64,000 bases of DNA from Psychrobacillus sp. NEAU-3TGS (lineage in GTDB: Bacteria; Bacillota; Bacilli; Bacillales_A; Planococcaceae): contig NZ_JAPNOZ010000012.1 of NCBI RefSeq assembly GCF_029955155.1, positions 1,185,753-1,249,752 on the forward strand, given 5' to 3'. Both the position numbers and the translations under genes were made by a program. The first letter of the stretch is position 1. Each line of letters starts with the position of its first letter. The notes under the pieces are model-generated. The model was not told the DNA's origin and ran no database searches. It saw only the letters and a list, made by a program, of their open reading frames with translations. Shown piece by piece: positions 1 through 14,371 of the stretch.

Positions 1-1098
1 TTCTTTTCGACGTATGACTTGATCATTTGTAATCTTAGAATCTTTTACATTTTCATAGAGTGATTTACCTGTAATCGTCATACGATCCGGATGAACCGCT
101 CCTGGAATTTCGCAAAGTTCTTTTATAATGGCACTAACTCCTCCTGCAAGATGAACATCATGCATCGAGTAATCAGAAGCTGGCATAATCTTCGATAAAT
201 AAGGAACACGCTTCGCTACTTCATTAATCTCTTTCACGTCGTATTCGATTTCTGCTTCATGAGCGATAGCTAATGTATGTAGTACTGTATTTGTAGAACC
301 ACCCATCGCCATGTCTAGTGCGAATGCATCGTCTATTGTTTCTTTCGTAACTAAATCACGCGGTTTAATATCTTCTTTTACCATTCTTACAAGATGTTGT
401 GCCGCTTCTTTAATAAGGCGATGACGTTCGTCGGATGTAGCAACAATCGTTCCATTACCCGGTGGTGTCAACCCTAGCATTTCCATTAAAGAGTTCATTG
501 AGTTTGCTGTGAACATCCCTGAACATGAACCACATGTTGGACATGCATTTTGTTCGATGTCTAGTAGTTGTTCTGCTGTCATTCCACCTGATTTATAAGA
601 ACCAACACCTTCAAAAACGGAAGTAAGTGAAAGTTGTTTGCCGTCAGCTGAAGTACCAGCTTCCATCGGACCACCTGATACAAAAACAGATGGGACATTC
701 GTTCTTACTGCTGCCATTAACATTCCTGGAGTGATCTTGTCACAGTTTGGAATGTAAAACACACCATCGAACCAGTGGGCATTAATAACAGTTTCCGCTG
801 AATCTGCAATCAGTTCACGACTCGGAAGTGAATATCTCATCCCGATGTGTCCCATTGCAATCCCATCATCTACACCAATCGTGTTAAACTCAAATGGAAT
901 TCCACCAGCTTCACGTATTGCTTCTTTAACGACCTCTGCAAATTTATTCAAATGCATATGGCCTGGAATAATATCAATATAGGAGTTACAAACGCCAATA
1001 AACGGCTTATCTAAATCTTTTGTTTTGACCCCAGTTGCATAAAGTAAACTTCTGTGCGGGGCACGGTCTACACCTTTTTTAATCATGTCACTTCTCAA
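1..1098 (-). CDS. ilvD: Dihydroxy-acid dehydratase IlvD (3' end lies outside the window)
   Basis: This enzyme dehydrates 2,3-dihydroxy-isovalerate and 2,3-dihydroxy-3-methylvalerate to the 2-oxoacids of valine and isoleucine synthesis, using an Fe-S cluster in the cytoplasm. The visible 366 codons are about two thirds of the usual ~560. They begin [20 protein letters not shown], the usual IlvD N-terminus, and contain the cysteine motif [21 protein letters not shown] chose TTG at 1098 as start because AGGAGCG lies seven bases upstream and the family N-terminus begins there. The reading frame is open to the window edge. Upstream lie a perfect CcpA-type site and a CodY-like box, which fits the control of branched-chain amino acid genes known in Bacillales. 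Confidence 0.95.
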
Positions 1099-1179
1099 TT
1101 TTAATCGCTCCTATACTTACCGCTTATCTAGCGTTTAGCTTTGCAGCTTTAGACTATTTATAGTCTTCTTTAGTTTGTG

Positions 1180-1194
1180 AATTTTCTCACAATA
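1180..1194. promoter_or_regulatory. CodY-like box in the ilvD leader
   Basis: The sequence AATTTTCTCACAATA matches the CodY consensus AATTTTCWGAAAATT at 12 of 15 positions and lies about 80 bases upstream of the ilvD start. CodY is known to repress ilv genes in Bacillus. Three mismatches make this a candidate only. Confidence 0.4.
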
Positions 1195-1285
1195 TTTAAT
1201 ATATTGTAGTTATCATATCGCCTTTAAAATGCCCCGTCAACACCCTTTTTTAAAATAATCTGTTAGTTTGGAATATTCATATACT

Positions 1286-1301
1286 ATGTAATCGTTTACA
1301 T
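1286..1301. promoter_or_regulatory. Catabolite-responsive element (cre, CcpA site) upstream of ilvD
   Basis: ATGTAATCGTTTACAT fits the cre consensus WTGNAANCGNWNNCW at every position and is itself nearly palindromic. It is about 190 bases upstream of the ilvD start. CcpA activates the ilv-leu operon in B. subtilis, so a cre here is expected; the effect in this organism is inferred. Confidence 0.6.
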
Positions 1302-1356
1302 TTGCGATATATCGCACTTTACACGCTTGAAAAATAATTGTGAATTTTTTGTTCAA

Positions 1357-1394
1357 AATAAAAAACCTCTCCACTTCTGTGGTGAGAAAGGTTC
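1357..1394 (-). terminator. Terminator-like hairpin upstream of ilvD
   Basis: Read on the minus strand, CTCACCAC and GTGGAGAG pair around an AGAA loop with one A-A mismatch and are followed by GGTTTTTTATTTT. No gene ends just before it. It is either a leftover terminator or an attenuator in a long ilvD leader. I see no T-box core sequence next to it. Confidence 0.5.
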
Positions 1395-1582
1395 TCAAAG
1401 GCATATTCTGTCTACGTTTAATGAAATATTGGGATACAATTCGGAGTCATGTGGGGTGGCATTATTTTCTATTAACTAACAAAATTAAGCTAAGGGAAAC
1501 CATTTTATAGATGAAAGCAACTAGTTCTGCATCGTGAGCAATTAATTTTGAACTGAGGACAACAACTGTATTAATACGCAAA

Positions 1583-1611
1583 GAAAAAACCTTCCCGTAG
1601 ACCTGGGAAGG
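1583..1611 (-). terminator. Terminator of the small membrane protein gene
   Basis: On the minus strand CCTTCCC and GGGAAGG form a perfect 7-bp stem around an 8-base loop, followed by TTTTTTC. It lies a few bases after the stop codon of the gene at 1619-2050. Confidence 0.85.
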
Positions 1612-1618
1612 CAAGTAT

Positions 1619-2050
1619 TTACCATAGATTCGGCTTGGCTACCATGAACCAAAGCATTATAAGTAACAATAAAATATAGAGCCACACAGAGCGACGTAAT
1701 TTTAAAACAAGCGTATTCAAATCAATCTTCTCATCTCGAAACAATCGAATATTCGGCTTAAACGCTCGCGCTAGAAAAACAATCGAACTTACCATTACAA
1801 CAATCGTCATAATGACCCATGACGTCGACCACGGCCAATTTCCTTGCCACATAAGCAAAATCCCAGATACAACAAGCACATGCCCAGCATGCTTTACAAT
1901 CCGTATAGCAGCTTGGAACACCTCTAAATGTGAATCTAACAACTCTCTATTTTGGAGTTTCATCCTATTTAATAACGGAAAAAGTACAAAGAACGGACCA
2001 ATAGATAAAATTGCGCTTAATACATGTGTAAATACTATAAATTTATACAT
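1619..2050 (-). CDS. Small four-helix integral membrane protein, function unknown
   Basis: The 143-residue product has four hydrophobic segments, at about residues 1-26, 51-68, 76-96 and 121-139, with few charged residues and no signal peptide. It therefore should sit in the cytoplasmic membrane. The pattern HVLSAILSIGPFF at the N-terminus resembles small DUF2269-like membrane proteins, but I cannot name a function. The ATG at 2050 follows AGGTGATT, and TATAAT lies a little further upstream, so it appears to be transcribed alone, ending at the strong terminator just downstream. It does not share an operon with ilvD. Confidence 0.75.
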   Translation of the reverse strand: MYKFIVFTHVLSAILSIGPFFVLFPLLNRMKLQNRELLDSHLEVFQAAIRIVKHAGHVLVVSGILLMWQGNWPWSTSWVIMTIVVMVSSIVFLARAFKPNIRLFRDEKIDLNTLVLKLRRSVWLYILLLLIMLWFMVAKPNLW

Positions 2051-2271
2051 AAAATAATCACCTAAGTATATTATACGGTATTGTGTCGGAGAAGGTTGTG
2101 TCTAGTTGAGGAAGATTTTGTGGTATAGGGGGAGGTTCGCTTACGCGCAACAGAGAATAAGTTTCTCTCAACAATCTAGTGCTTACTCGCAATATTTGGA
2201 GTCAGTTTAAAAATTGGACATGTTCAAATACGAACTTCATACTAACAGAAAATAAAGAGAGCGTGTCTTTG

Positions 2272-2394
2272 ACTGCAGTTCAAACTAGAGAACTGTGCGA
2301 ATAGTTAGCGAAGTTGAAAGTGGAAGAAGAGCTGCAAGAGGAAAGTGAAATCATAAAAAAGGTCATGCATGTCTTCGTCCAAGGTCACACATGT
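2272..2394 (+). pseudogene. Remnant of an IS3-family OrfA transposase
   Basis: Frame 1 from 2272 reads TAVQTRELCE, a stop at 2302, then LAKLKVEEELQEESEIIKKV. This is the C-terminal leucine-zipper pattern of IS3-family OrfA proteins (ELRRLxxENxxLKxExxILKKA). There is no start codon, one internal TAG, and no recognisable OrfB or terminal inverted repeats, so it is a relic. Identification rests on the heptad and ILKKA-like pattern only. Confidence 0.5.
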
Positions 2395-2520
2395 TATTTA
2401 AGCTCATGTAGGGACATCAAAATGAATATATATCGCGTGGTGAAGTTGTAGAGGATTCTTCCGTGGATATTACAAAAGTATTAAAGGCAAAAGCGAGACC
2501 AGATACTCGGGGAAATAAAA

Positions 2521-2556
2521 AAAAATCAACCTGTGTTATAGAGGGTTGAATTTTTA
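2521..2556. terminator. Bidirectional hairpin terminator
   Basis: TCAACC and GGTTGA form a 6-bp stem with a 12-base loop. It is flanked by an A-run on the left and ATTTTT on the right, so it could stop transcripts in either direction. Confidence 0.5.
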
Positions 2557-2775
2557 CTTCTAGATACACAAGTACCCAGAACTATTATTATTTTACTATG
2601 CTATAGGAGCTGGAACTCCCGCTTCTTAGAGATAAAAGACTAATTAGTGAAAATCCCTAATATTCCCTAGAGAAATTAAACATATACGTATTTGATTGCA
2701 CATATACATAATAAAAGGGCTATCTCTATCATTTTACGCCCTAAAAAACTGCACCATTTATGGAGGTGAATACAA

Positions 2776-2883
2776 ATGACAACATACGAATTGCTAAGCT
2801 TACTCATTCAACTATCTGGCGGTTGGATTGCTTTTATGTCGGTGGCGTTGTCAGTTATCTTTTTCTTATCAAGAAAGAAGTAA
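2776..2883 (+). CDS. Putative holin-like type I toxin peptide (TxpA/Hol_Tox-like)
   Basis: A 35-residue peptide starts MTTYELLSLLIQLSGG and ends in SRKK. It has a single hydrophobic helix of about 20 residues and a basic C-terminus, the build of the holin-like toxins of type I toxin-antitoxin loci in Firmicutes. GGAGGTG lies eight bases before the ATG, one of the strongest ribosome sites in the window. The stop codon is inside a 13-bp perfect inverted repeat, and a strong terminator follows about 130 bases later, so the mRNA has a long structured 3' tail. Such toxins are normally silenced by an antisense RNA. The family assignment is from length and pattern, not from a search. Confidence 0.65.
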   Translation: MTTYELLSLLIQLSGGWIAFMSVALSVIFFLSRKK

Positions 2884-2924
2884 CCGCCCCCATCGGCAGG
2901 AGTGTGGACAATTACTTCTTTCTT
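2871..2924. repeat. Perfect 13-bp inverted repeat over the toxin stop codon
   Basis: AAGAAAGAAGTAA at 2871-2883 is the exact reverse complement of TTACTTCTTTCTT at 2912-2924, with a 28-base spacer that can extend the stem. The left arm contains the toxin stop codon. No T-run follows, so it looks like an RNA-stability or translation-control element rather than a terminator. Confidence 0.8.
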
Positions 2925-3015
2925 CTTTAGCCAAAAGCTTTTTCTGCCCAACTAATTACGTCGTCGTACGATGCACAAAATCGACCATGATTTTGTCTAG
3001 CAGTCTACCATTTAG

Positions 3016-3049
3016 GACTGAGTGCTGAAACACTCAGCCCTTTTTTATT
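3016..3049 (+). terminator. Terminator of the toxin transcript
   Basis: CTGAGTG and CACTCAG pair around CTGAAA and are followed by CCCTTTTTTATT. This is a strong Rho-independent terminator on the plus strand. Confidence 0.85.
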
Positions 3050-3369
3050 GTATGTTAGGTTTATAATTATATGATGAATTGTTGTTTGAAGTGTAATACG
3101 ATATCACTAAATTCATTAAGAAACCTAGATTTCTTTATACTTCGTTATTGTGAAACAATAAAGCTTGCGCATAGGACTTACTACAACTCCATATGTGAGT
3201 AACTTTTATCTATAGTATGCAACAAGCACCAATAATAGAAACAATACTTTTAGTATTTTCCTAGAATCAGTAAAATGTGCTCAAAAAAGTATTTATTTTT
3301 AGAAATCTGAAGAGAATGGAATTTTAGTAGTTATCTAGATCACTGTGATTTATTAAACCTGAAATGATA
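3050..3369. other. Intergenic stretch without a recognisable feature
   Basis: About 320 AT-rich bases between the toxin terminator and the end of the YiiX-like gene. I see only weak short hairpins here, and no gene. Confidence 0.5.
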
Positions 3370-3960
3370 TCATGGAGTGATTTCGAACAAAGGTTTGACA
3401 TAGGGATCTGCCGCAATATGTTCTGGGAAAATAAAACCCATTGGATCGCGTGAAAGCTCTATTTCCAATTGCTTGTAGCATTCGTCTACGAATTCAGAGC
3501 ACATATATTCAAAATCCTCCGTATGTCTTACGATTCCTAAACTTATGCGTGCAACAATCTTGGCTATCTCGTCTTTGTCATAATTTCGATTAAGCAAATC
3601 AATCGCTTTTCCACACATACTTTTTATTTTTTCTTTATCAAAATCAGAACTATCAACAACTTCATGTCGGGCTACATACATTTCTCCATTATACTTTTCC
3701 TTACTATTTTCATAATTGTAAAGATAATGTGATAATGGGACCACCCTGACACCGTCGTCTTCTACACTTTCCAATACAAGTACACGCTCATTCCAATAGA
3801 CTAACAAGGCTACATGACTGAATACAGAGTTTGATAGTTTTTTTATCATCTCACTGACTAAATAGCGTCCGCTACAAAAAAGAATATCTCCTGTTTTTAT
3901 TTTGCTTTTTGCTAGTTGATAGGAAATCTGGTTTATTCCATTAAATTTACTAGTCCCCAT
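3370..3960 (-). CDS. YiiX/YaeF-like permuted papain-fold hydrolase
   Basis: This 196-residue cytoplasmic protein has the circularly permuted NlpC/P60 (papain) layout. GDILFCSG at 24-31 begins the fold, SHVALL carries the presumed catalytic His49, and E64 lies in the VLESV strand. Cys154 in MCSEFVDE is the presumed nucleophile. In this family the histidine precedes the cysteine, as seen here. Family members are amidases or thiol hydrolases acting on peptide or lipid amides; the substrate here is unknown. There is no signal peptide, so it is not an obvious wall enzyme. The ATG follows GAGGAGCG. It lies about 110 bases downstream of the protease-nuclease gene on the same strand, separated by a hairpin, so co-transcription is likely. 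Confidence 0.75.
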   Translation of the reverse strand: MGTSKFNGINQISYQLAKSKIKTGDILFCSGRYLVSEMIKKLSNSVFSHVALLVYWNERVLVLESVEDDGVRVVPLSHYLYNYENSKEKYNGEMYVARHEVVDSSDFDKEKIKSMCGKAIDLLNRNYDKDEIAKIVARISLGIVRHTEDFEYMCSEFVDECYKQLEIELSRDPMGFIFPEHIAADPYVKPLFEITP

Positions 3961-4013
3961 TTATAATCGCTCCTCAAATCAATGTTATCTACCTATATTA
4001 AGGGTTAGTTGGC

Positions 4014-4038
4014 CCAGTGGTAGAGCCGCTACCACTAG
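4014..4038 (-). other. Intercistronic hairpin between protease-nuclease and YiiX-like genes
   Basis: AGTGGTAG (4016-4023) and CTACCACT (4029-4036) form a perfect 8-bp stem with a 5-base loop. No T-run follows on either strand, so it more likely affects mRNA stability or partial readthrough than full termination. Confidence 0.45.
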
Positions 4039-4070
4039 GGGAACAATAGCTAAATTTTAATGTTCAAATT

Positions 4071-5870
4071 TCAGAGTTTTATATCCTCGGGTGCATCAAT
4101 GACATATCCTATTATCGATTCTAATTGATTGATAGGATCGTAATTACGTAAATCTTCAAAATCAAGACCTGTAGTCTCCTCAATTTTTGAAATGGGCACT
4201 TGGTACGTTTTATATTCACCGTAAGCAAATTCCAAATCCTCAATAAGATTTTTTTGAGTCTGCAAATAAGCAGTTGCAGAGAGGTTTCCATCTTTCTTAA
4301 CAATGACTGCTATTTTCCAAAATTCTGCCGGTATCTGAACGCCTCTGTAAATAATGTCATCCATCCTAAAAACTGGTCCAGTAAACACCGTTACTTTAAG
4401 ATTCGAGTTTTCGGCATTATCTAAAATATAATTCTCCAGATCCAACCAGGTTTTTTGATTCAACTTACTTTGCTGAGGAGCACAATTGGTAAAGTGGAAC
4501 GTATCCTTATTTGCCCTTTCCGCCGAATCTCCCCAAACAGGATCAAGCCGGCGGACAAGATGTCCCCGATCAAGCGGATTATTTTTATATAATTCAGGAC
4601 CGCACTGGTACTCTATTTCGATGCGAGAATCGAGATACCATTTGTCATTACGGCCAATCTTCATCAACTGATTGCCGTCAATATTAACCACCGTATAATA
4701 TGCTAAACGGCGTGATTTGCTCATGACAATTGAAAAATGCGTATAATGGAGCACATTGCTTCCGTCTTTTAACTGGGCAACATCCTGTTCAAGATCAGAT
4801 CTGAACATCGGATGAGGAACTTCATAATCGTCACCAAGAAATTGAGTGTCATAGCCGGTCGAACCTTCATACCATGAATCGCTTAACTCCTCAACTACCA
4901 TCTCCTCAGAAGTAGGACCTTGGACTTTCCACCCCTTCACAATGTCATTTATTAATAACTTTTGATCTTCACCCAAGTTGGCGCTTTGCTCCACGACAAA
5001 CTGGATAATACTGCTTATGCGAATCCCTTCATTGGCAATAAATTTAGCCGCATCCTTTGGATCTGGAACGCCTGCATGGTGGAGACAGATTACGATCCAT
5101 TCGTCATTATATACAGGTGATCCAGAGGATCCAGGCATGGTATCTGTGGAGTAATGAATATAGTCGTCAAATACATCCATAATTTGATTTTCTCTAATCG
5201 CAACAGCTTTAGGGGCCCCTGAAGGATGTTGAATAATTGATACATATTCACCAACCAACCCTTTTCCAGTTTGCGGAATGAGGGGTAAGAACCCAAAATC
5301 ACTTACTTTGGTGCCATCAGCAGACATATCCTCTATCGCGACTAATGTGAAATCAAGCTTCTGATCCGTTATAAATAAACGCTCAGGTGTTAAACGGAAG
5401 GTTTTCATCGGACGTTCTTTTAAGTCAAGATCAACTTCATAGTTGAATTGTGCGCGACTAAACTGAGCCGTATCGTAGTTCTCCAAAACATGATTATTTG
5501 TAAGCAATAACGAAGGTGATACAAGAAAACCTGTAGCATGTCCGAGAACCCTGCCTATTCGATCTCGAATTTCGATTCTACAAACTGGTCTAGCTGCTTG
5601 CAGACCTGCTTCAAGATAAGAGATAGGAAATAGATCATCTTGACCAATAATACGCTCCATAGCAAGTCCATCACGTGGATCTATAATCGCTTTACGAAGT
5701 GTAACTCGCTCAGGCGTATCTACTTCCAAGGGATTTTTAATTTGCAGTTCACTAGCAATTCGTTCACGTTCACTAGAACGTGCGATGTAACGCTTTAATG
5801 CTTGTTGTTGTTGCAAATCTACAAGACTCATATTATAGCTTTGAAACTTATCAAGTCGTTTAATAGACAT
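4071..5870 (-). CDS. Trypsin-like serine protease fused to a NUC1 DNA/RNA non-specific endonuclease
   Basis: The 599-residue protein has two enzyme domains. Residues ~95-295 are a chymotrypsin-fold protease: His127 in LLLTNNHVLE, Asp173 in KLDFTLVAIE and Ser249 in PGSSGSPVY form the triad. Residues ~360-590 are a beta-beta-alpha metal nuclease: DRGH at 434-437 gives the general base His437, and TNCAPQQSKLNQKTWLDLE at 461-479 supplies the metal-binding asparagine and glutamate. No signal peptide or membrane segment is visible, so both enzymes should be cytoplasmic. The first ~90 residues are a basic and polar region of unknown role. AAGGAGGATAAAC precedes the ATG. A divergent intracellular subtilisin lies 430 bases upstream and a papain-fold hydrolase downstream. 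A protease that controls its own nuclease is the natural hypothesis, but this is inference. Confidence 0.9.
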   Translation of the reverse strand: MSIKRLDKFQSYNMSLVDLQQQQALKRYIARSSERERIASELQIKNPLEVDTPERVTLRKAIIDPRDGLAMERIIGQDDLFPISYLEAGLQAARPVCRIEIRDRIGRVLGHATGFLVSPSLLLTNNHVLENYDTAQFSRAQFNYEVDLDLKERPMKTFRLTPERLFITDQKLDFTLVAIEDMSADGTKVSDFGFLPLIPQTGKGLVGEYVSIIQHPSGAPKAVAIRENQIMDVFDDYIHYSTDTMPGSSGSPVYNDEWIVICLHHAGVPDPKDAAKFIANEGIRISSIIQFVVEQSANLGEDQKLLINDIVKGWKVQGPTSEEMVVEELSDSWYEGSTGYDTQFLGDDYEVPHPMFRSDLEQDVAQLKDGSNVLHYTHFSIVMSKSRRLAYYTVVNIDGNQLMKIGRNDKWYLDSRIEIEYQCGPELYKNNPLDRGHLVRRLDPVWGDSAERANKDTFHFTNCAPQQSKLNQKTWLDLENYILDNAENSNLKVTVFTGPVFRMDDIIYRGVQIPAEFWKIAVIVKKDGNLSATAYLQTQKNLIEDLEFAYGEYKTYQVPISKIEETTGLDFEDLRNYDPINQLESIIGYVIDAPEDIKL

Positions 5871-6303
5871 GTTTATCCTCCTTAAATTATAAAATTGAAG
5901 TACATTATTTTATTTTGACTATTCTAACATTTCAGTGATTTCATTGGAAGTTACTTTTTACGGGTATTATAATAGATTTTTAGTCCAAAGACTCAATAGC
6001 TATTTAACGGTTACTCGCAACATGTAACATGCACTACTTTTAGAAATATTTCTTTATATTTCTGAACTTTAATAGTGAATAAGCGCTAAATAGGATACCT
6101 CTCAAATAAGTCTTCTGAATCTATTATTCAAATTAATTAATATTGATTTGACGGAATAATCAGATAATGATAAGATTTATTTTACAGTAAACTAGCACTT
6201 CTAATAGAAACAAAGCTATTAGTAGATTCCCCATAACAGTAAGTTGATGATAAAAGTTTTTGAATTTGAATAGGTTTCCAATAATACTTTGAGGAGGTAT
6301 AAA
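5871..6303. other. Divergent intergenic region between protease-nuclease and ispA
   Basis: 433 AT-rich bases must hold the promoters of both divergent genes. I could not settle on a convincing -35/-10 pair and see no gene, repeat or strong hairpin. Confidence 0.5.
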
Positions 6304-7268
6304 ATGGATAATTTTGTTCATGTAATTCCATATGAAGTGATTGTACAAATGACGGAGACCAACGAAATTCCTACAGGCGTAGAATTAATTCAAGCACCCA
6401 AGATCTGGGACAAAACAAAAGGAAAAGATATTACGGTAGCTGTCCTGGATACAGGATGCGATTGTAGTCATCCCGATTTACAAGAACGGATTATAGGCGG
6501 TCGTAACTTTACGGACGATGATGAAAGCAATCCCGATATATTCCTCGATTACAATGGACATGGCACTCACGTTGCCGGAACGATTGCTGCACAGAAGAAC
6601 GACAAAGGTGTAGTCGGAGTAGCTCCTGAATCAAATTTACTTATTATAAAGGTATTGAATAAAAAAGGCTCGGGACAATATGAGTGGATTATCAATGGAA
6701 TCAATTATGCCATTGAACAAAAGCGGATATTATCTCCATGTCGCTAGGCGGTCCAAATAATATGCCTGAACTTCATGAAGCGATTAAAAAGGCTATCAGT
6801 AACAATATCCTTGTAGTTTGTGCTGCTGGAAATGAGGGTGACGGCGACGATTCAACCGATGAATTCGCCTATCCAGGCTGTTATAACGAAGTCATTAGTG
6901 TAGGTGCAATAAACCTTGAGCGTCGCTCTTCCGATTTTACCAATTCTCATAATGAAATCGATTTAGTTGCTCCGGGAGAAAAGATCCTCTCTACGTATTT
7001 AAAAGGCAAGTATGCAACATTAAGCGGAACTTCAATGGCTGCACCTCATGCCTCTGGGGCACTTGCTCTCATAAAAAGCTTGGTCAACCACAATTTCGGT
7101 CGGGAACTATCAGAGCCTGAGCTCTATGCTCAGCTAATTAAAAGGACGATTCCACTAGGTTTCTCGTCCAAGCTTGAAGGTAACGGCCTCGTTTATTTGA
7201 CGGTAATCGAACATTTGAGCGGTGTATTTGAGAAGGAGAGTAAAGAGTTGGTTTTGAGTTCACAATAA
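6304..7268 (+). pseudogene. ispA: Intracellular subtilisin IspA, split by a one-base deletion
   Basis: IspA-type proteases are cytoplasmic S8 peptidases made without a signal peptide and held inactive by a short N-terminal extension. The ATG at 6304 follows GAGGAGGT. The extension carries VIPYEV, matching the inhibitory LIPY motif of this family. The triad is Asp49 (AVLDTGCD), His86 (NGHGTHVAG) and a serine in LSGTSMAAPH at about residue 244; CAAGNEGD carries the oxyanion asparagine. The frame breaks at the A-run 6719-6722: one extra A would join INYAIEQK to ADIISMSLGG and restore a normal ~321-residue enzyme. All other residues look functional. It may be a sequencing error, a recent null mutation or, less likely, slippage. 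A strong terminator follows. Confidence 0.9.
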
Positions 7269-7318
7269 TTACGATTAAAAGTGGCGGGACTTCCTATTTT
7301 TCGGACATTTATAATCAT

Positions 7319-7362
7319 AAAACGCGGTCCGAAGATTTCACGGAACGCGTTTTATTGTTTTT
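7319..7362 (+). terminator. Terminator of ispA
   Basis: AAAACGCG and CGCGTTTT pair, with TCCG/CGGA extending the stem internally, followed by ATTGTTTTT. It lies about 50 bases after the ispA stop. Confidence 0.8.
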
Positions 7363-7398
7363 GATAAATTTGAACTTTTTATGTGTAACCTAGAGCCC

Positions 7399-7543
7399 GT
7401 TTCTCGCAATATTCTCAAGAACCGCAAGATAGACTGACTGAATCGCAAGATCATAGCTTAAAATCGCAAAATACTCGCCCCAACTCGCTAGGTAGCAACC
7501 CAGAATAGCAAGATCCCCCCTCCGAATCGCAAGATACTCTTCT
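7399..7543. repeat. AATCGCAAGAT repeat array A
   Basis: About six degenerate copies of a unit with core ATCGCAAGAT (variants ACCGCAAGAT, ATAGCAAGAT, ATCGCAAAAT) are spaced roughly 20-30 bases apart. The array lies between the convergent ends of ispA and a chemoreceptor gene. The same unit recurs at 49460-50015 and 59930-60165. Confidence 0.75.
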
Positions 7544-7548
7544 TCCAT

Positions 7549-7581
7549 ATAAAAAAGCGACCCCAATTTCTCGGAGTCGCT
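7549..7581 (-). terminator. Terminator of the first chemoreceptor gene
   Basis: On the minus strand AGCGACTCC and GGGGTCGCT pair around a short loop and are followed by TTTTTTATAT. Confidence 0.85.
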
Positions 7582-7594
7582 ACTAAACTATCTA

Positions 7595-9280
7595 TCAAAT
7601 TTTAAAATGGCTTACTTCTGATTGAAGTGTTTCTGCTAGATCTGCTAATGTTTGCGCATTAGCTGTAATTTCTTCATTGGCTGCAAGCTGTTCTTCTGTA
7701 GCCGCACTTGTGTCGTTTGCACCGTCTGCAGCTATAGATGCTAGCTGCTGAACCTGTTGCACACTTTCTGTTACGGACTCAGTCATCGCGTGAATTTGCT
7801 CAATTGCTGCGGAAACAGATTCTACTTTAAACACTACAGCTCCCACACCGCTTTCAATTTCTTTGAATACTTGGATGGATTCTGTTGTTTTTAATAGACC
7901 TTCTTCTACTTTTGAGCCGCCTGTCGTAATTGCTTTTACAGCTTCACCGGATGCTGATTGGATTAGTTGAACCATTGATCCAATTTCGGATGCAGAGTTT
8001 TTCGATTGCTCCGCAAGTTTGCGTACTTCTTCCGCTACTACTGCAAACCCTTTTCCATATTCTCCAGCACGCGCTGCTTCAATTGCCGCATTTAAGGCAA
8101 GCAAATTCGTTTGCTCCGAAATATCTGTAATAAGGGATGTGATAGATTGGATTTCACCGGAATGTTTCGCCATACTTTTCATAATTTCTGTTGTTTCATT
8201 AAATGTCGTATGTATTTTTTCCATTTGACCAGCTACATCTGTAACAACGGAAGATCCTTTTGTTATAAGGTTCTGTACGCCATCCGTCGATTGCAACATT
8301 TCTTCGTTGTTTTTGGCAATTTGACCAATACCTTCTTGTAATTCTACGATCGATTTCACCGAAGATTCCATATGACTCATTTGCTCTTCACTTGCAAGCA
8401 TTTGTCCTTCTGCTGATTTTGCGACCATTTGAGTGGAAGCTAAACTTTCTTCTGAACTTGCAGATAGTTCTTCTGCGTTAGCGGCAAGTTGCATCGAAGA
8501 GTCTCGGACATTAGAAACAATATTTCTAAGATCGGTAATCATCTTATTAAATGCAACAGCCATTTCGCCAACTTCATCTTTATTTTTAATCTTAATAGTT
8601 TCAACTACCAAGTTACCATCAGCTATATCTGCAAGACCTGCAGTAACCTTTGTAATTGGTTTGGAAATGCTTCTACTGATGAAATGAGAAACGAGTACAC
8701 CAATAATAATGCTTGAGATAGTTAGTATCATTGTGACTATATTTGTAAGTTTTACATACTCATCTAGATTTTTTTGTGCCTGATCCACGTGTGCTTGTTG
8801 TATTTGTTCTAATTGTGCCAATGTATCCAATATAGTTTTGTTAAGTTCCTGAGAATTTGCTGCATATTGAGCAAACATACCATTTTTTCGTTTCAAATCA
8901 ATTATTTTATTATTCGATTCAAATAATTTAACTGTATCGTTTTTAAGATCTTCCATTAATTTTAATGAAGCTTGATCATCAGCTAAGCCATCTATCAATT
9001 CCTGTGCAACTTCAGATCCTTCTTTCATTTGTCCATCTAATTTCTGAATGGAATCTTCCTTGCCGAACATAACAAATTCTAAAACAGAGCTTGACATATC
9101 CTTTTGAATAATTTCAATTTTTTCTAAAAGATCTACTCTTCTCATATCTTCGTCAATAATTGTTTTATATCTATCCGTAATATCAATAGTTGAGAAGATA
9201 GATAAAGCACTTGCAATTATTAATAGGAGCAATACCGCCAAAAATCCAAACCACATCTTTCTACTAATCGTAAATTTCAT
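7595..9280 (-). CDS. Methyl-accepting chemotaxis protein (first of two)
   Basis: This 561-residue receptor has an N-terminal membrane helix (~11-30) and an extracellular four-helix-bundle-type sensor region to ~175. A second membrane helix lies near 180-200, a HAMP linker ([15 protein letters not shown]) follows, and the rest is a long cytoplasmic signalling domain. The hairpin tip carries the conserved stretch [19 protein letters not shown], which binds CheA and CheW. It should feed an attractant or repellent signal into flagellar motor control; the ligand is unknown. It is 60-70% alike in the cytoplasmic part to the neighbour at 9435-11123 but differs in the sensor. It has its own SigA-type promoter. 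Confidence 0.95.
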
Positions 9281-9341
9281 CCTATGACTCCCTTTTTTCC
9301 TATAAACTTATTTTATATATTAATTACTTAGTAACTATACT

Positions 9342-9370
9342 ATTATACATTCGGAAAGGTATTTTGTCAT
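9342..9370 (-). promoter_or_regulatory. SigA-type promoter of the first chemoreceptor gene
   Basis: On the minus strand ATGACA is followed after exactly 17 bases by TATAAT, about 62 bases upstream of the chemoreceptor start. This is a near-consensus vegetative promoter. Confidence 0.7.
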
Positions 9371-9382
9371 ATTCCATAATCA

Positions 9383-9421
9383 TAAAAATGGCCTTAAATC
9401 GAATTCTCGACTTAAAGCCAT
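9383..9421 (-). terminator. Terminator of the second chemoreceptor gene
   Basis: AATGGC(T)TTAA and TTAAGGCCATT pair around a nearly palindromic centre and are followed by TTTTATG on the minus strand. Confidence 0.8.
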
Positions 9422-9434
9422 TGATATTTCTTTG

Positions 9435-11123
9435 TTAGATTTTAAAATGGCTAACAGTACTTTGAAGCGCTTCCGCAAGGTCTGCTAATGTTTGAGCATT
9501 GGAGGTAATTTCTTCGTTGGCAGCTAATTGTTCCTCCGTTGCAGCGCTTGTATCATTTGCCCCATCTGCAGCACGTGCTGCCAAACGTTGTACTTCAAGT
9601 GAGCCTTCTGACACAGATTCCGTCATCGCTTGAATTTGCTCAATAGCTGCAGAAACTGATTCAATTTTAGAACCAACCACTCCGACCGCTGTTTCGATTT
9701 CATTGAATACATCAAGTGAATCATTCGTTTTAGCAAGACCATCTGCCACTTTGTCTCCACCAATCATAATCGCTTTCACTGCATCATCCGAGGCAGTTTG
9801 AATGATGTGGATCATCTTTTCAATTTCAAAGGCAGAGTTTTTAGACTGCTCTGCAAGTTTTCGAACTTCTTCTGCTACTACTGCGAAGCCTTTACCATAC
9901 TCACCGGCACGTGCTGCTTCAATAGCCGCATTTAACGCCAACAAATTCGTCTGCTCAGAAATATCCGTTATAAGTGCGGTAATGGACTGAATTTCATCTG
10001 AATGCTTCGCCATATTATGCATAATTATCGTTGTATCTTTGAAAGTGGAATGGATCGTATCCATTTGAACAGCAACATCTGAAACTACAGCTGAACCTTT
10101 TTTCACTAATTTAGTCACATCATCCGCAGCTTGCAGCATTTCTCCATTATCAACTGAAATCTGTCCGATTCCCTGTGCTAATTCATTCATGGAGTTAACA
10201 GAGGTGTCCATATGGCGTACTTGCTGTTCACTTGTCGCCATCTGTGATTCTGCAGATTGGGCAACCATTTGGGACGAAGCTAAACTCTCTTCGGCACTTG
10301 CTGAAAGTTCTTCCGCATTTGCAGCAAGCTGCATTGAAGAATCGCGAACATTTGAAACAATTTCACGAAGATCTACAGACATCGCGTTAAAGGCAATCGC
10401 CATCTCTCCAACTTCATCTTTATTTTTAATGTGAATAGGCTCAACAGTTAAATTGCCTACTGCGATTTCCGACAAACCGGCCGTAACGCGCTTAATCGGT
10501 CTTGAAATACTTCGACTGATAAAATAAGCTAATATGATTCCTAATAATACTGCTGTTACCGTAATTAAACCAGCAAATATTTTAGCCCCTCGCTCATAAT
10601 TTGTTATTTCCACCCGCATGCTTTCCATATCATTTTGGAAAAACTGTTCCATTTCCTCTAGGATACTTATCATACTCTCACTAATCGACTTTGCTTCCGT
10701 AGAAAGCTTACTAACCTCCACGGTATTATTATTCATCTTCGCCGCAATAATTTCTTCATTATTTTTAGCATAAAGCATCATTTTTTTATCAAAATCATTT
10801 GACAGCTCAAGCATTTCGGGAGAAAAAAGAATACCTTTTAATTGTTGCGCGAGCTCTGTTGTTAATACATGATTTTCAGATATGCTTTTCTTCGATGCAT
10901 CTGTATTAGATAGTAAATAATCCATTACACTTCTAGTAGTGTCCTTTTGAGCCATTTCTATATCTTTCACAAGATTCACTTTCACAGCCTGGTCATCTAA
11001 TAGAAATTGATATTTACTACTCGTATTCATCATCGCCATAATGGTAAGCACAGCAACGACAATTAGTAAAAATAAAATAGCAGAAAAACCAAGCCACATC
11101 TTTTTCCCAATCGATATTTTCAT
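9435..11123 (-). CDS. Methyl-accepting chemotaxis protein (second of two)
   Basis: A 562-residue receptor with the same plan as its neighbour: membrane helix at ~11-30, extracellular sensor, second helix near 185-205, HAMP ([19 protein letters not shown]), and a signalling domain containing [19 protein letters not shown]. It ends in the same [10 protein letters not shown] type of tail. The sensor part is only weakly similar to that of the first receptor, so the two likely see different ligands while sharing the chemotaxis machinery. It starts 28 bases after the LysM-NlpC/P60 gene on the same strand with no terminator between them, so the two are probably co-transcribed. Confidence 0.95.
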
Positions 11124-11151
11124 AGGAAATCTCCCTCCAACTAATCCGCTA

Positions 11152-11913
11152 CTAATTCACGCTTACCGCATGAAAACGTTTAAAGGAAACAAAATGCTCT
11201 TTCCAATAAACATTACTTAACTTTGTAATCTCAACGCCTTTTGAACCCGCATGTATAAACTCATCGTTGCCTATGTAAATGCCCATATGAGAGATTCCCT
11301 CTTTATATGTATTTTCGAAAAATACTAAGTCCCCAATTACAGGAGTCGAAACAGGTGCACTTTGAGTAAAATAACTTTCACTGCTTTGTCTTGTTATATT
11401 CAGACCTGCTTGTGTATGTACAAAATAAATAAATCCGCTACAATCAAATCCAGCAATTGTATTTCCTGCATACAAATACGGAGTGCCTTCCAATAATTTA
11501 GCAAAATCTACTAGCGTACTGTAAACAGCTTGTCCACTCGTAGAAAGAGCTTTTGCTTCCCCTTCTACAGGTGTAGGAGAAGTAATCAGTGTTTCTGCCT
11601 TAACTTGCGCTGGTTGTACAACCTTTTCTGTTGTTACTTGCGTTACAGGTTTCGTTGCTACGACCGGTTGTGTCACTTTTGACGTTGTCTTTGCTGCTAC
11701 CGGCTTTTTTACTACCAATTTCTGCTTTACATAAATATTCTCTTTTGTGAGCTTATTCCACGTTTGCAAGTCTTTCACGGAAACTTTATTTGCTTTTGCA
11801 ATTTTCGTTAAAGTATCCCCTTTTTTCACTTCATACAAGCCAGTAGTGCTTGCAGAGGCTATAGATGTAAATGAAAATAAAAGAACCGTTACTAAAAGCA
11901 CCTTTTTAAACAT
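11152..11913 (-). CDS. Secreted LysM-NlpC/P60 peptidoglycan endopeptidase
   Basis: The 253-residue precursor has a signal peptide ([21 protein letters not shown]), one LysM wall-binding domain (~27-70, [15 protein letters not shown]), a Thr/Val-rich linker and a C-terminal NlpC/P60 domain. The catalytic cysteine is in FDCSGF, the histidine in ISHMGIYIG, and a third polar residue in FIHAG. Such enzymes cut D-gamma-glutamyl-diamino acid bonds in wall peptides during growth or separation. The start ATG follows AGGAGGAG. No gene precedes it on this strand until the terminator near 12030, so transcription probably begins in the 100 bases upstream. Confidence 0.92.
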
Positions 11914-12013
11914 ATAAACTCTCCTCCTATTAGACTATTAATTTTATCATAGCATTAATTTGCTATTTTCACACTATTAATTTTGAAAAGATATTTCCTG
12001 GGAAATGAGCGTT

Positions 12014-12052
12014 TTAAAAGCTCCAAGAATGGTTATCTTCTTGGAGCTTTTA
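12014..12052. terminator. Bidirectional terminator after fliT
   Basis: AAAAGCTCCAAGAA and TTCTTGGAGCTTTT form a perfect 14-bp stem around an 8-base loop, with T-rich sequence on both strands. It ends the flaG-fliD-fliS-fliT operon. Confidence 0.85.
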
Positions 12053-12072
12053 CTATTAACTTATGTGACATA

Positions 12073-12426
12073 TTATTTTTTCTTATCGTAAAAGGTGCCA
12101 TCTCGATATACTTGATTATAAGGATCCATATAGGCATTTACGGACACTTTTTTCTTTTGCTGCTCGGATATATCTAGACGTATATCTTTCAGATAAACTT
12201 TGAGCTTCGCTTGAAGTGTTTTTTCTAAAGGAAGTAGCTCTTCTCCGAACGTTTGTTCCTCATTCGAAAACGGGGCTTGAATAGTAGGTTGCAATTTATC
12301 CCGTTCAGTCAAAAGTTTATCAACTTGTTCGATTACCGCATCTCGCTTATCTTCTCCTCGTACGTCTAATATCCTAGTTAAAAGCTCTGTAACCCTTTTC
12401 CAGTCTTTTAAACTATCTCGAATCAT
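12073..12426 (-). CDS. fliT: Flagellar protein FliT (FliD chaperone)
   Basis: FliT is the small export chaperone for the filament cap protein FliD. The 117-residue protein is mostly helical and hydrophilic and ends MDPYNQVYRDGTFYDKKK, the conserved C-terminal tail of Bacillus FliT. Its ATG overlaps the fliS stop by four bases (ATGA), showing translational coupling. Sequence conservation in FliT is low, so position directly after fliS is the main support along with that tail. Confidence 0.85.
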   Translation of the reverse strand: MIRDSLKDWKRVTELLTRILDVRGEDKRDAVIEQVDKLLTERDKLQPTIQAPFSNEEQTFGEELLPLEKTLQAKLKVYLKDIRLDISEQQKKKVSVNAYMDPYNQVYRDGTFYDKKK

Positions 12427-12824
12427 ACTTCACCTGTTTGACCATATTGTTTTTGGCGATTAATTTGAATGACTTGTTTCCACGTATCACGGAACTCAGT
12501 CGTATATCCAATCACTTCGTCTACCTTAGCGGTATCATTTTGAATATTAGCCTCTACTAATCGATTAATCATATATTCATATAAAGAAGCCATCGATGCA
12601 GAAACAGCAACCGACATATCTAACGTGATCATCAATTCACGTAGAATATTTTGTGCTTTTTGGATATTCGTATTTTTTAGTTCAATGTCTTTTGTTTCGA
12701 TTCCTTTTTTCGCTTGGTTCAAAAACTTCAAGCAACCATTATACAACATTAGTGTCAATTCACCCGGTGTCGATTGGGTTACACTATTTTGTTGATATGC
12801 TTTATATGGATTATTTACAGCCAT
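12423..12824 (-). CDS. fliS: Flagellin chaperone FliS
   Basis: FliS binds the disordered C-terminus of flagellin in the cytoplasm and prevents early polymerisation; in B. subtilis it also links flagellin to the FliW-CsrA switch. The 133 residues show the family features: an N-terminal NPYKAYQQNSVTQSTPGELT segment, LMLYNGCLKFL, and the helical bundle with LYEYMINRLVEANI. Length is normal. It follows fliD by about 40 bases and overlaps fliT. Confidence 0.97.
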   Translation of the reverse strand: MAVNNPYKAYQQNSVTQSTPGELTLMLYNGCLKFLNQAKKGIETKDIELKNTNIQKAQNILRELMITLDMSVAVSASMASLYEYMINRLVEANIQNDTAKVDEVIGYTTEFRDTWKQVIQINRQKQYGQTGEV

Positions 12825-12862
12825 ATTTTACACTCCTCATTTTTTAACACTTTTTAACTTAA

Positions 12863-14371
12863 TTATTGCCCACCAAATGCATTCATTAGATAAGATGATT
12901 GGTTATTTGCTCGTAAGATCGCTGATTCCATTGCAGAGAATTGTTTGTAATAGCGCGTTTCGATTAACTGAAGACGATCTTCAAAACGTGAAATTTGATC
13001 TTCAAAACCTTTTAATGTACGGCCAAGTGAAAACGTAGTATTTACTGCTGTATCCGTACCGGCCTTTTCAATCACTTTTTTACGCGTATCATCTAAAGTA
13101 GCAACTAATCTCCTTGCCAACCCTTTATCCGCATCTGTAGGACCATCAGCGGCAAAAAGTTCATAAACTTGATTAGGATCATCCGAAATTGCTTTACGTA
13201 ATTTCGTTTCATCAATTACTAATTTACCGTTTTCCATATAATTGTTAGAAGTAGTGATACCTATCTCACTTAATCTATCGGCACCAAGAACCCCGCCAAC
13301 AGCTGCATTTAATGCAGAACGCATTTGACTTAATGCACTGGAAATAACACTATCATTCCGAAGTGTCCCACTCTTCGCTTTTTCTTCCCAAAGTTCGATT
13401 TCTTTCTCCTTCATATCTGTTTTTTGCTCAGTAGAAAGAGGTTGGAAATCTCTATATTTTTTTTCACGAATTTCGCCGTTTAAGTTTTCGATTAACTTGT
13501 TATATTCATCTACGAATTTTACTACAGATTCTAAAATTTTATCAGTATCAGGAGCTGAACTAAACGTAATGTCTGACTCGCTTGCTTTTTTCAGTGAAAC
13601 TTCGAATCCATTGATTTGGAAAGTGTTGGACTGACGTTGTGTCTCTAAACCATTGTATACAAAAATGGCATTCTTACCTTCTGTCGCAACAGCTCCAGAA
13701 ACTTTCAAAAAGTTATTAGTATCTCCCTCAATTACGATTTCTGGAGGATTAGTTATGATATTTCCGCCTGCGTCAACTGTATTTGCAATTTCACCACTAT
13801 TTTTTGCAGTAAAGGCCATCTTCCCCGTAAATGAATCATAGAATGCATTAACACCTGAATTTTTGTTGATGTCATTTAGCACACTTTGCATAGTGGAGTT
13901 TTCATCAATTTTTACTACATAACCATCTTTATCTAAAGTGCCATCTGATTTTATCGCCTTAATAGTAAATGAAGATGGTACCTCGACGTTCAAATCTTTT
14001 AGTTTTTTTGTTAAATCAGCATCAGAAGCTAAAACTCGATTGGTACTTTGCATAGTTGCTGCTTCTGCAAGCTGTTTTACATTGATCTTCCCTGTAAAAT
14101 CGCTTGTCGAACTAATATTTCGTACACTAATTTCGTCTGGAGCTGAGCTAGTAACCGTTTTTTGAATGTAAGTAGATTGACGCAGCATTGTATCACTTGT
14201 TAAATTTCGAAAATCAAACAATTTTTTATTCGCTGCTCTATAATCATCACGTTGCCACTCCATGTATTGCTTCTTTTGCATTATCTTATCTAAAGGAATC
14301 CGTTGTGCATTCATTAATTCCTTAATCATCGTATCTGTATCCATACCACTTGCTAATCCGGTAATACGCAT
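12863..14371 (-). CDS. fliD: Flagellar hook-associated protein 2 FliD (filament cap)
   Basis: FliD caps the filament tip and helps exported flagellin polymerise. The 502-residue protein starts RITGLASGMDTDTMIKELM, the FliD N-terminal signature (D0 helix). It has a flagellin-IN-type central region (FQINGFEVSLKKASESDI near 273-290) and a FliD C-terminal domain ending in the coiled coil ISRFEDRLQLIETRYYKQFS. Length is typical of Bacillales. It lies 15 bases downstream of flaG and is served by the SigD promoter before flaG. Confidence 0.97.
   Translation of the reverse strand: MRITGLASGMDTDTMIKELMNAQRIPLDKIMQKKQYMEWQRDDYRAANKKLFDFRNLTSDTMLRQSTYIQKTVTSSAPDEISVRNISSTSDFTGKINVKQLAEAATMQSTNRVLASDADLTKKLKDLNVEVPSSFTIKAIKSDGTLDKDGYVVKIDENSTMQSVLNDINKNSGVNAFYDSFTGKMAFTAKNSGEIANTVDAGGNIITNPPEIVIEGDTNNFLKVSGAVATEGKNAIFVYNGLETQRQSNTFQINGFEVSLKKASESDITFSSAPDTDKILESVVKFVDEYNKLIENLNGEIREKKYRDFQPLSTEQKTDMKEKEIELWEEKAKSGTLRNDSVISSALSQMRSALNAAVGGVLGADRLSEIGITTSNNYMENGKLVIDETKLRKAISDDPNQVYELFAADGPTDADKGLARRLVATLDDTRKKVIEKAGTDTAVNTTFSLGRTLKGFEDQISRFEDRLQLIETRYYKQFSAMESAILRANNQSSYLMNAFGGQ

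Follow-up and report, generated by a model that had tools for sequence, protein, structure and literature searches.

A genomic island of Psychrobacillus with a trypsin–NUC1 fusion, an intracellular subtilisin and a C92 hydrolase as a candidate protease-controlled nuclease module

The fusion of a trypsin-like peptidase with a NUC1-type nuclease is an architecture that has already been published, in the NucA–trypsin system of Kaur et al. 2020 and in LypC. The NucA–trypsin conflict system ('System 3') was predicted by Kaur et al., who proposed a proteolytic cascade; it is described as mostly alphaproteobacterial and as having optional EAD1 and STAND/death-like partners (PMC7159879). LypC belongs to the CARD-NLR-like LypABC system of Caulobacter crescentus, in which its partners are a CARD-protease and an NLR-like ATPase; the peptidase is needed for lysis but the nuclease is not, and deletion of the nuclease domain destabilises the protein (PMC13236601). 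Tuck et al. 2025 have shown in HamMAB and AVAST that MBL pro-nucleases stay off until a trypsin-like protease cuts them (PMC12799240). Protease-gated nucleases are a recent theme of bacterial immunity.

In this study, a locus of Psychrobacillus sp. NEAU-3TGS was compared with these systems. The window (the whole 64,000-nucleotide stretch of DNA analysed) contains a genomic island of approximately 5.3 kb (2124..7403, no strand assigned) that holds a toxin-like ORF, a C92 hydrolase, a trypsin–NUC1 fusion and an intracellular subtilisin (ISP, S8). Similar to System 3, a NucA/Endonuclease_NS nuclease occurs here with a trypsin-like peptidase (fused, where System 3 uses fusion or one operon), and further peptidases, namely, the ISP and C92 proteins, lie near the fusion. 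System 3 loci can contain multiple trypsins, and System 3 sometimes adds an S8 peptidase in the same polypeptide, whereas here the subtilisin is a separate gene, and the host belongs to Bacillota and has the C92 protein in addition. None of the ORFs in window positions 1-14000, of which seven proteins were Pfam-scanned, could be recognised as a STAND NTPase with a death-like domain. The pro-nucleases of Tuck et al. differ further in that the MBL nuclease is encoded separately and the protease is fused to HamA, Avs or LmuA; our fusion has a NUC1 fold and no MBL. NucA, Serratia nuclease and EndoG (2o3b, 1zm8, 1g8t, 6m3f) share the NUC1 fold and catalytic residues, but they are separate proteins, NucA having the inhibitor NuiA, whereas the domain here is fused to a protease.

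Among tested relatives, the closest in domain order is LypC, which, compared by description and without alignment, likewise consists of an N-terminal trypsin-like peptidase, a flexible linker and a C-terminal NucA-type endonuclease. This order favours a CARD-NLR-type defence effector whose NLR sensor and CARD-protease are encoded elsewhere in the genome or have been lost. We regard this explanation as very improbable, since neither a CARD-trypsin-ATPase protein nor an NLR-like ATPase beside the fusion was recognised in window positions 1-14000 and EAD1 (PF19955) was unmatched in the genome of the strain, with the control genomes equally silent. Our leading explanation, held with about as much confidence as doubt, is that the NucA–trypsin module, which combines a protease with a sugar-non-specific nuclease, occurs in this island in a Bacillota form and acts as a proteolysis-controlled intracellular nuclease.

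The fusion protein and its possible control

The fusion gene (4071..5870, minus strand) encodes 599 aa, in which Pfam detected Trypsin_2 (residues 112-261, 5088..5537, minus strand; E 5e-20) and Endonuclease_NS/NUC1 (residues 359-573, 4152..4796, minus strand; E 3e-52). The sequence-only reading had proposed exactly such a fusion with complete active sites, and its residue numbers were right: His127, Asp173 and Ser249 in the protease and D434-R435-G436-H437 (DRGH) in the nuclease, which we take to be the catalytic residues of the respective families. Foldseek matched the trypsin domain to FAM111A, V8 and HTRA1. The protease triad was invariant in 27/27 full-length rows of alignment A1; D434, G436, H437, N462, N471 and E479 were invariant in all 34 rows, and R435 was replaced by K in three of these 34. 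The domains are joined by a linker (residues 290-338, 4857..5003, minus strand), whose residues 315-321 have a pLDDT under 50 in the predicted structure. Of the parts compared, the linker had the highest dN; in seven pairs its value exceeded that of either domain by a factor of 1.7 to 6.5. Between the window and L006, dN/dS was 0.045/0.537 for the trypsin domain, 0.046/0.340 for the NUC domain and 0.277/0.511 for the linker. These substitution patterns indicate that both catalytic centres are under purifying selection.

As regards the zymogen state, the cleavage and its direction, the trigger and the outcome, we infer the following. Most likely, the 599-aa protein would be a single-chain, zymogen-like enzyme that does no harm in the cytosol until proteolysis at or close to the flexible linker switches it on. 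The cutter could be the trypsin domain of the fusion itself, acting in trans between copies, or the neighbouring intracellular subtilisin, the family of which is described as pro-peptide-locked and calcium-dependent. The active nuclease would then degrade cytosolic nucleic acid, and the cell would die or be recycled.

The finding that lysis by LypC needs the peptidase and not the nuclease speaks against a simple reading in which a protease frees a killer nuclease. The trypsin domain may instead be the working output, with a role in signalling or processing like that of the LypC peptidase, and NUC1 may be mainly stabilising or accessory; the essential peptidase residue, the dispensable nuclease residues and the destabilising domain deletion of LypC (PMC13236601) all fit this. 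We consider it unlikely, given the invariant nuclease residues with low dN/dS and the persistence of trypsin-less NUC1 proteins. The latter occur naturally and are conserved (L021/L022, dN 0.032, dS 0.214), which also counts against the proposed protease-controlled module.

The island and its other genes

The island is bordered by a DUF2269-like gene on one side and two chemotaxis receptor genes on the other. It was missing from the corresponding site in all six genus-mates examined by blastn, with matches that stopped at window positions 2050-2123 and restarted at 7404-7601, approximately 85-950 bp apart in those genomes. The ISP, C92 and trypsin–NUC1 genes were found in the same 3/19 genus genomes (3/3 vs 0/16; the p-values ignore shared ancestry). 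The island genes at this site come or go as one unit. No integrase or terminal repeats (repeats of at least 18 nt) were seen, and this counts against a module. Within the window no tRNA genes were found and Rfam gave no match at gathering thresholds.

The three clustered hydrolases of different classes named in the sequence-only reading are all real, with the subtilisin frameshifted, and its description of them as cytoplasmic fits their hydropathy: the fusion, the C92 protein and the intact ISP orthologue all begin without a strongly hydrophobic segment. The supposed YiiX-like papain-fold hydrolase was recovered as a C92-family permuted papain-like hydrolase of the YiiX/YaeF type (196 aa, 3370..3960, minus strand; PF05708, E 1.4e-12). 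C92 was matched in 8/200 family genomes, two of them through short fragments only, and six of the eight also had a trypsin–NUC1 match, a co-occurrence for which the p-values ignore shared ancestry.

The subtilisin gene (6304..7268, plus strand) is separate from the fusion gene and divergent in orientation. Its identity as an intracellular subtilisin was upheld, but its frame is broken: a one-base frameshift near 6720 leaves two overlapping frames, 6289-6747 and 6738-7268. The orthologue L002 has an intact frame of 326 codons with the S8 catalytic motifs, a LIPY/F-type pro-peptide and no signal peptide. The frame is likewise intact throughout L002-L008, and Psychrobacillus lasiicapitis carries an intact copy. 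When the first 14 kb were compared with L002, only a single further indel that disrupts the frame of a called gene could be placed, in the last codons of a LysM gene near 11160. The frameshift of the supposed linker cutter speaks against gating by the ISP in the window assembly. The solved sequences closest to the L002 protein are the intracellular subtilisins 7xr8, 2wv7 and 2x8j, of which we take 2wv7 and 2x8j to be the B. clausii ISP and 7xr8 a major intracellular serine protease. They likewise have no signal peptide and a LIPY/F-type pro-peptide; the ISP genes of the loci studied here differ in adjoining nuclease genes, and the window copy in being frameshifted.

The borders had been read as a decayed transposase and a type I toxin. 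The candidate transposase stretch is interrupted by stops. A hydrophobic, TxpA/Hol_Tox-like ORF of 35 aa is present (2776..2883, plus strand) and conserved in related islands, but its Pfam Hol_Tox score of 14.5 bits lies below the cut-off of 23.3. The same ORF adjoins the ISP in L107-L109, whose genomes have no trypsin–NUC1 match. This would suit a chance neighbourhood, in which an acquired segment with unrelated hydrolases is stabilised by the adjoining type I toxin, as would the unrelated neighbours of many trypsin–NUC1 loci. Such a chance origin seems to us quite improbable, because ISP–nuclease and protease–nuclease linkage is repeated in differing arrangements and C92 is rare and found mostly in trypsin–NUC1-positive genomes.

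Membership of known defence families was rejected: PADLOC gave partial, single-domain matches for the fusion and for both pieces of the subtilisin (RT-Protease_XI, PDC-S45, subtilase, IetS), and none for C92. Carriage by phages was also set aside, as six phage records gave partial NUC-domain matches only, at 24-28% identity and none covering 80%. In two scans of viral contigs, one gave no pattern match and the other gave 47 pattern matches that contained no relative.

Neighbours of trypsin–NUC1 genes

Neighbours were tabulated at 52 non-redundant trypsin–NUC1 loci (61 minus nine near-copies). A protease of the sought classes lay within 3 kb at 14/52 loci and at 3-6 kb in 3/52 (Fisher p 0.007), in a test that leans towards an effect because its reference proteases were drawn from these and related loci. 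Some genes adjoin an astacin-like protease, a papain, a matrixin or a second trypsin. The pairing of protease and nuclease recurs, but many neighbours are unrelated: 38/52 loci, including all 10 non-redundant Erwiniaceae loci, have no such protease within 3 kb, and an ISP adjoins the fusion in only seven of the 25 full-length trypsin–NUC1 genomes of the family sample. A conserved protease island across all trypsin–NUC1 genes was rejected on these counts. The absence of a neighbour weighs less in that a fused protease needs none. The earlier proposal of a protease-gated module stands in part: the presence or absence of the unit, the recurring pairing and the published trypsin–NucA systems favour it, but the many unrelated neighbours, which the sequence-only reading itself had named as grounds against gating, and the frameshifted ISP do not. 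Three proteins join a relative of this trypsin module to other nucleases (Exo_endo_phos and Endonuclease_1); the gene of one adjoins an ISP-like S8 peptidase and that of another an astacin-like protease.

Intracellular subtilisins beside nuclease genes

An Endonuclease I (EndoI) gene lies downstream of the ISP, on the same strand and at no more than 400 bp, at 23 of the 42 high-identity ISP loci. The count covers the 42 strongest ISP rows only, and by eye no weaker row adjoins EndoI; the G066 pair, 6 bp beyond the limit, was not counted, and the G138 pair was counted although its EndoI is truncated. These tandems recur in several genera, and plasmids of Priestia megaterium and Lysinibacillus carry them too. 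In L122, the ISP stop overlaps the start of a trypsin-less NUC1 gene. It counts against a module that an ISP and a NUC1 gene, though both present, lie far apart in five genomes of one genus (G011, G030, G047, G072 and G082).

The recurrence of ISP–EndoI tandems in several genera strengthens the alternative that the island is a stationary-phase or mother-cell degradation set, in which ISP, nuclease and C92 are late-growth scavengers clustered by shared expression rather than for gating or defence. Published accounts give ISPs a part in protein turnover during stationary phase and sporulation (PMC6220982, PMC9549277), and none of the ORFs in window positions 1-14000 was recognised as a defence gene. 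The patchiness of the island (3/19 genus genomes) and the strong constraint on the fused trypsin domain, beyond what simple scavenging requires, weigh against a degradation set, which we consider possible but not probable. With regard to the protease-controlled nuclease preferred here, the linkages suggest that relatives repeatedly pair internal proteases with nucleases, and the pairing probably serves to hold a self-destructive nuclease off until needed. The link of ISPs to nucleases appears to be the new element here.

An ISP pro-peptide was found at the N-terminus of five EndoI proteins, all of one genus; the homology to ISPs spans approximately 30 residues (best E 1e-6 in a search among all ORFs of the set). 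The EndoI of L151, taken alone, matched less well, its best hit on an ISP of the set having E 0.004, and the EndoI of L145, which has a faint LTPYV stretch, was left out of the count. LIPY-like N-termini also arise by chance, as the loose pattern occurred in 5/1197 non-S8 ORFs of at least 150 aa, three of them unrelated. The pro-peptide-bearing EndoI genes do not adjoin an ISP, which counts against a module, and they could come from in-frame deletion.

A wider and more doubtful proposal is that ISPs of Bacillota, long viewed as enzymes of protein turnover, may be the activating or reciprocally restrained partners of cytosolic pro-nucleases, among which EndoI, NUC1 and trypsin–NUC1 would be exchangeable. 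The pro-peptide grafted on EndoI would be a docking or inhibitory tag, the whole a two-zymogen suicide switch and the island its transferable version. Should partner nucleases prove to be targets of ISPs, this protease family, much studied but vague in function, would acquire a role open to experiment, and caspase-like zymogen cascades could be studied conveniently in Bacillus-type bacteria. With the five pro-peptide-bearing EndoI proteins, the link can be tested directly. In a tree of 29 ISPs labelled by partner, with 6/26 inner branches open, several long rows and an arbitrary root, trypsin–NUC1 partners were clustered (two changes) and the EndoI label was scattered (four changes).

Island genes and genomic context

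The three hydrolase genes and a toxin-like ORF of the window form one island of about 5.3 kb (2124-7403). Sixteen genomes of the genus sample lack trypsin-NUC1; in the six of these chosen for comparison, all without the island, about 85-950 bp separates the DUF2269-like gene from the chemotaxis receptor genes that flank the island in the window, where the distance is 5.3 kb. Neither an integrase nor a long terminal repeat was seen at the island. A 34-nt repeat (TCGCAAGAT-like) occurs in five imperfect copies with 21-bp spacing just beyond its right end (7418-7535). The host genome comprises 4.42 Mb in 16 contigs, and its closest named relative is Psychrobacillus lasiicapitis, with 98% identity in the fusion protein.

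The sequence-only reading had named three hydrolases, and two were recovered as described: a 599-aa protein in which a Trypsin_2 domain is fused to a NUC1 (Endonuclease_NS) domain at the C-terminal end (4071-5870, minus strand), and a YiiX-like papain-fold protein, assigned to the permuted C92 family (3370-3960, minus strand). The intracellular subtilisin (ISP; 6304-7268, plus strand) was correctly identified; however, the gene is not intact, being split over two frames. The first 14 kb of the window was compared with L002, a locus with an intact ISP orthologue. The ISP frameshift near 6720 was accompanied by only one other placeable out-of-frame indel in called genes, in the last codons of a LysM gene (about 11160), and is therefore either recent or an assembly error.

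The fourth member (2776-2883) is an ORF for a hydrophobic protein of 35 aa that resembles type I toxins. Such TxpA-like ORFs also accompany ISP at L107 (6516), L108 (8437), L109 (6526) and L003 (two places), including beside ISP in genomes without trypsin-NUC1, and degenerate second copies exist.

Trypsin-NUC1 was present in 3 of 19 genomes of the genus sample, and the same three carried the C92 gene and a close ISP (match E up to 1e-60; the frameshifted copy was counted for the window genome). Across the family, the C92 gene was rare (8/200 genomes, two by short fragments only), and six of these eight had a trypsin-NUC1 match; ISP was commoner (86/200).

Conservation and neighbours of the trypsin-NUC1 fusion

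Sequence and fold searches placed the Trypsin_2 domain near V8 and Spl proteases, HTRA1 and FAM111A, and the NUC1 domain near NucA, Serratia nuclease and EndoG. In an alignment of the window with 33 of 40 relative loci, the trypsin triad was unchanged in 27/27 full-length rows, and NUC1 residues D434, G436, H437, N462, N471 and E479 in 34/34 rows. Both domains are under purifying selection, and dN of the interdomain linker was 1.7 to 6.5 times that of either domain in seven pairs compared. The predicted structure (mean pLDDT 78.1, pTM 0.51) fell below pLDDT 50 at linker residues 315-321, with further weak stretches at residues 1-6, 45-78 and 542-550. The fusion has no strongly hydrophobic N-terminal segment. 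Judged from its sequence, the fusion looks functional. Conserved trypsin-less NUC1 proteins also occur in Paenisporosarcina-type genomes (L021, L022, L100).

Trypsin-NUC1 ranges over Bacillota, Erwiniaceae, rhizobia, cyanobacteria and one actinobacterium. The sequence-only reading had proposed that recurrent pairing with S8 peptidases, YiiX-like proteins or known defence genes would support a system. When 52 full-length, non-redundant loci were surveyed, 14 had one of the protease classes sought within 3 kb, versus 3 at 3-6 kb; the remaining 38, among them all ten non-redundant Erwiniaceae loci, had none within 3 kb. Among the 14, the neighbour was ISP at six (L002, L004-L007, L110), two large flanking S8 proteins at L010, astacin-like at L011 and L012, papain at L018, matrixin at L076, M14 at L087 and a second trypsin at L120 and L121. 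On rhizobial plasmids, protease and nuclease occur fused or as adjoining genes, sometimes near an S1/P1 nuclease, phospholipase D-like or CHAT protein. In 3/295 Paenibacillus-type family genomes, a related trypsin module is joined to Exo_endo_phos and Endonuclease_1 in full-length proteins of 905-920 aa (L123:5976-8735, L124:5982-8699, L125:5795-8557); the L125 gene overlaps an astacin-like gene, and that of L124 has an ISP-like S8 and a free-standing Endonuclease_1 in its vicinity.

At five Planococcus-type loci (L084, L085, L089, L091, L094), the trypsin-NUC1 stop overlaps an ABC ATPase gene start by 4 bp. At L127 (5595-7633, minus strand), a caspase-fold (C14) gene closely follows a trypsin-like protein gene.

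Possible control of the nuclease by proteolysis

The trypsin-NUC1 architecture is already known. Kaur et al. 2020 (PMC7159879) define a NucA-trypsin system, propose a proteolytic cascade and mention S8 together with NucA. Trypsin-activated pro-nucleases, with a nuclease fold other than NUC1, are shown in Tuck et al. 2025 (PMC12799240). LypC shares the domain order of the fusion, and Banks et al. 2026 (PMC13236601) showed that lysis requires its peptidase, not its nuclease. The island is most likely a proteolysis-controlled cytosolic nuclease module, in which ISP, a second zymogen, may act as activator; we infer the gating step, its direction, trigger and outcome. The main rival is that these enzymes constitute a stationary-phase degradation set.

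Linkage of ISP to nuclease genes

No paper tying intracellular subtilisins to Endonuclease I (EndoI) or NUC1 genes was found among open-licence PMC papers. As a variant of a known theme, three things appear new: the island in Bacillota, the tandems of ISP with a nuclease gene, and the EndoI proteins that bear the pro-peptide. At 23 of 42 high-identity ISP loci in the window's family, EndoI shares the strand of ISP and lies no more than 400 bp away; the spacing is 11-41 bp in 22 of these tandems. The direct ISP-EndoI order recurs in the family and on plasmids (G173, G115, G063 and others; L134, L135; L145, L146, L157, L158), and a different S8 takes the place of ISP at L133. Three plasmid records have S8 directly upstream of EndoI; identity to the intact ISP was 59% in P. 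megaterium and 70% in L. fusiformis, and the P. filamentosa S8 is of a different type (31%). No EndoI match at E up to 1e-25 was found in the seven genomes with ISP adjoining trypsin-NUC1. At L122 (7001-8763, minus strand), the stop of the ISP gene and the start of a NUC1 gene without a trypsin part overlap; the product of this NUC1 gene shares 66% identity with the NUC1 domain of the window. ISP and a NUC1 gene are also both present, but apart from each other, in five genomes of a single genus.

Five EndoI proteins of one genus (L151:7856-8740, L152:7395-8306, L153:7197-8087, L159:597-1493, L160 from about 619) have an N-terminus homologous to the ISP pro-peptide, reaching the ISP mature start in most. 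All five retain the LIPYxV motif, which is reported to lie at the active site of ISP and inhibit the enzyme (PMC6220982); it was absent from the other EndoI proteins aligned or listed, except for a faint LTPYV in L145. None of the five genes adjoins ISP, so they may have arisen by in-frame deletion inside an ISP-EndoI tandem.
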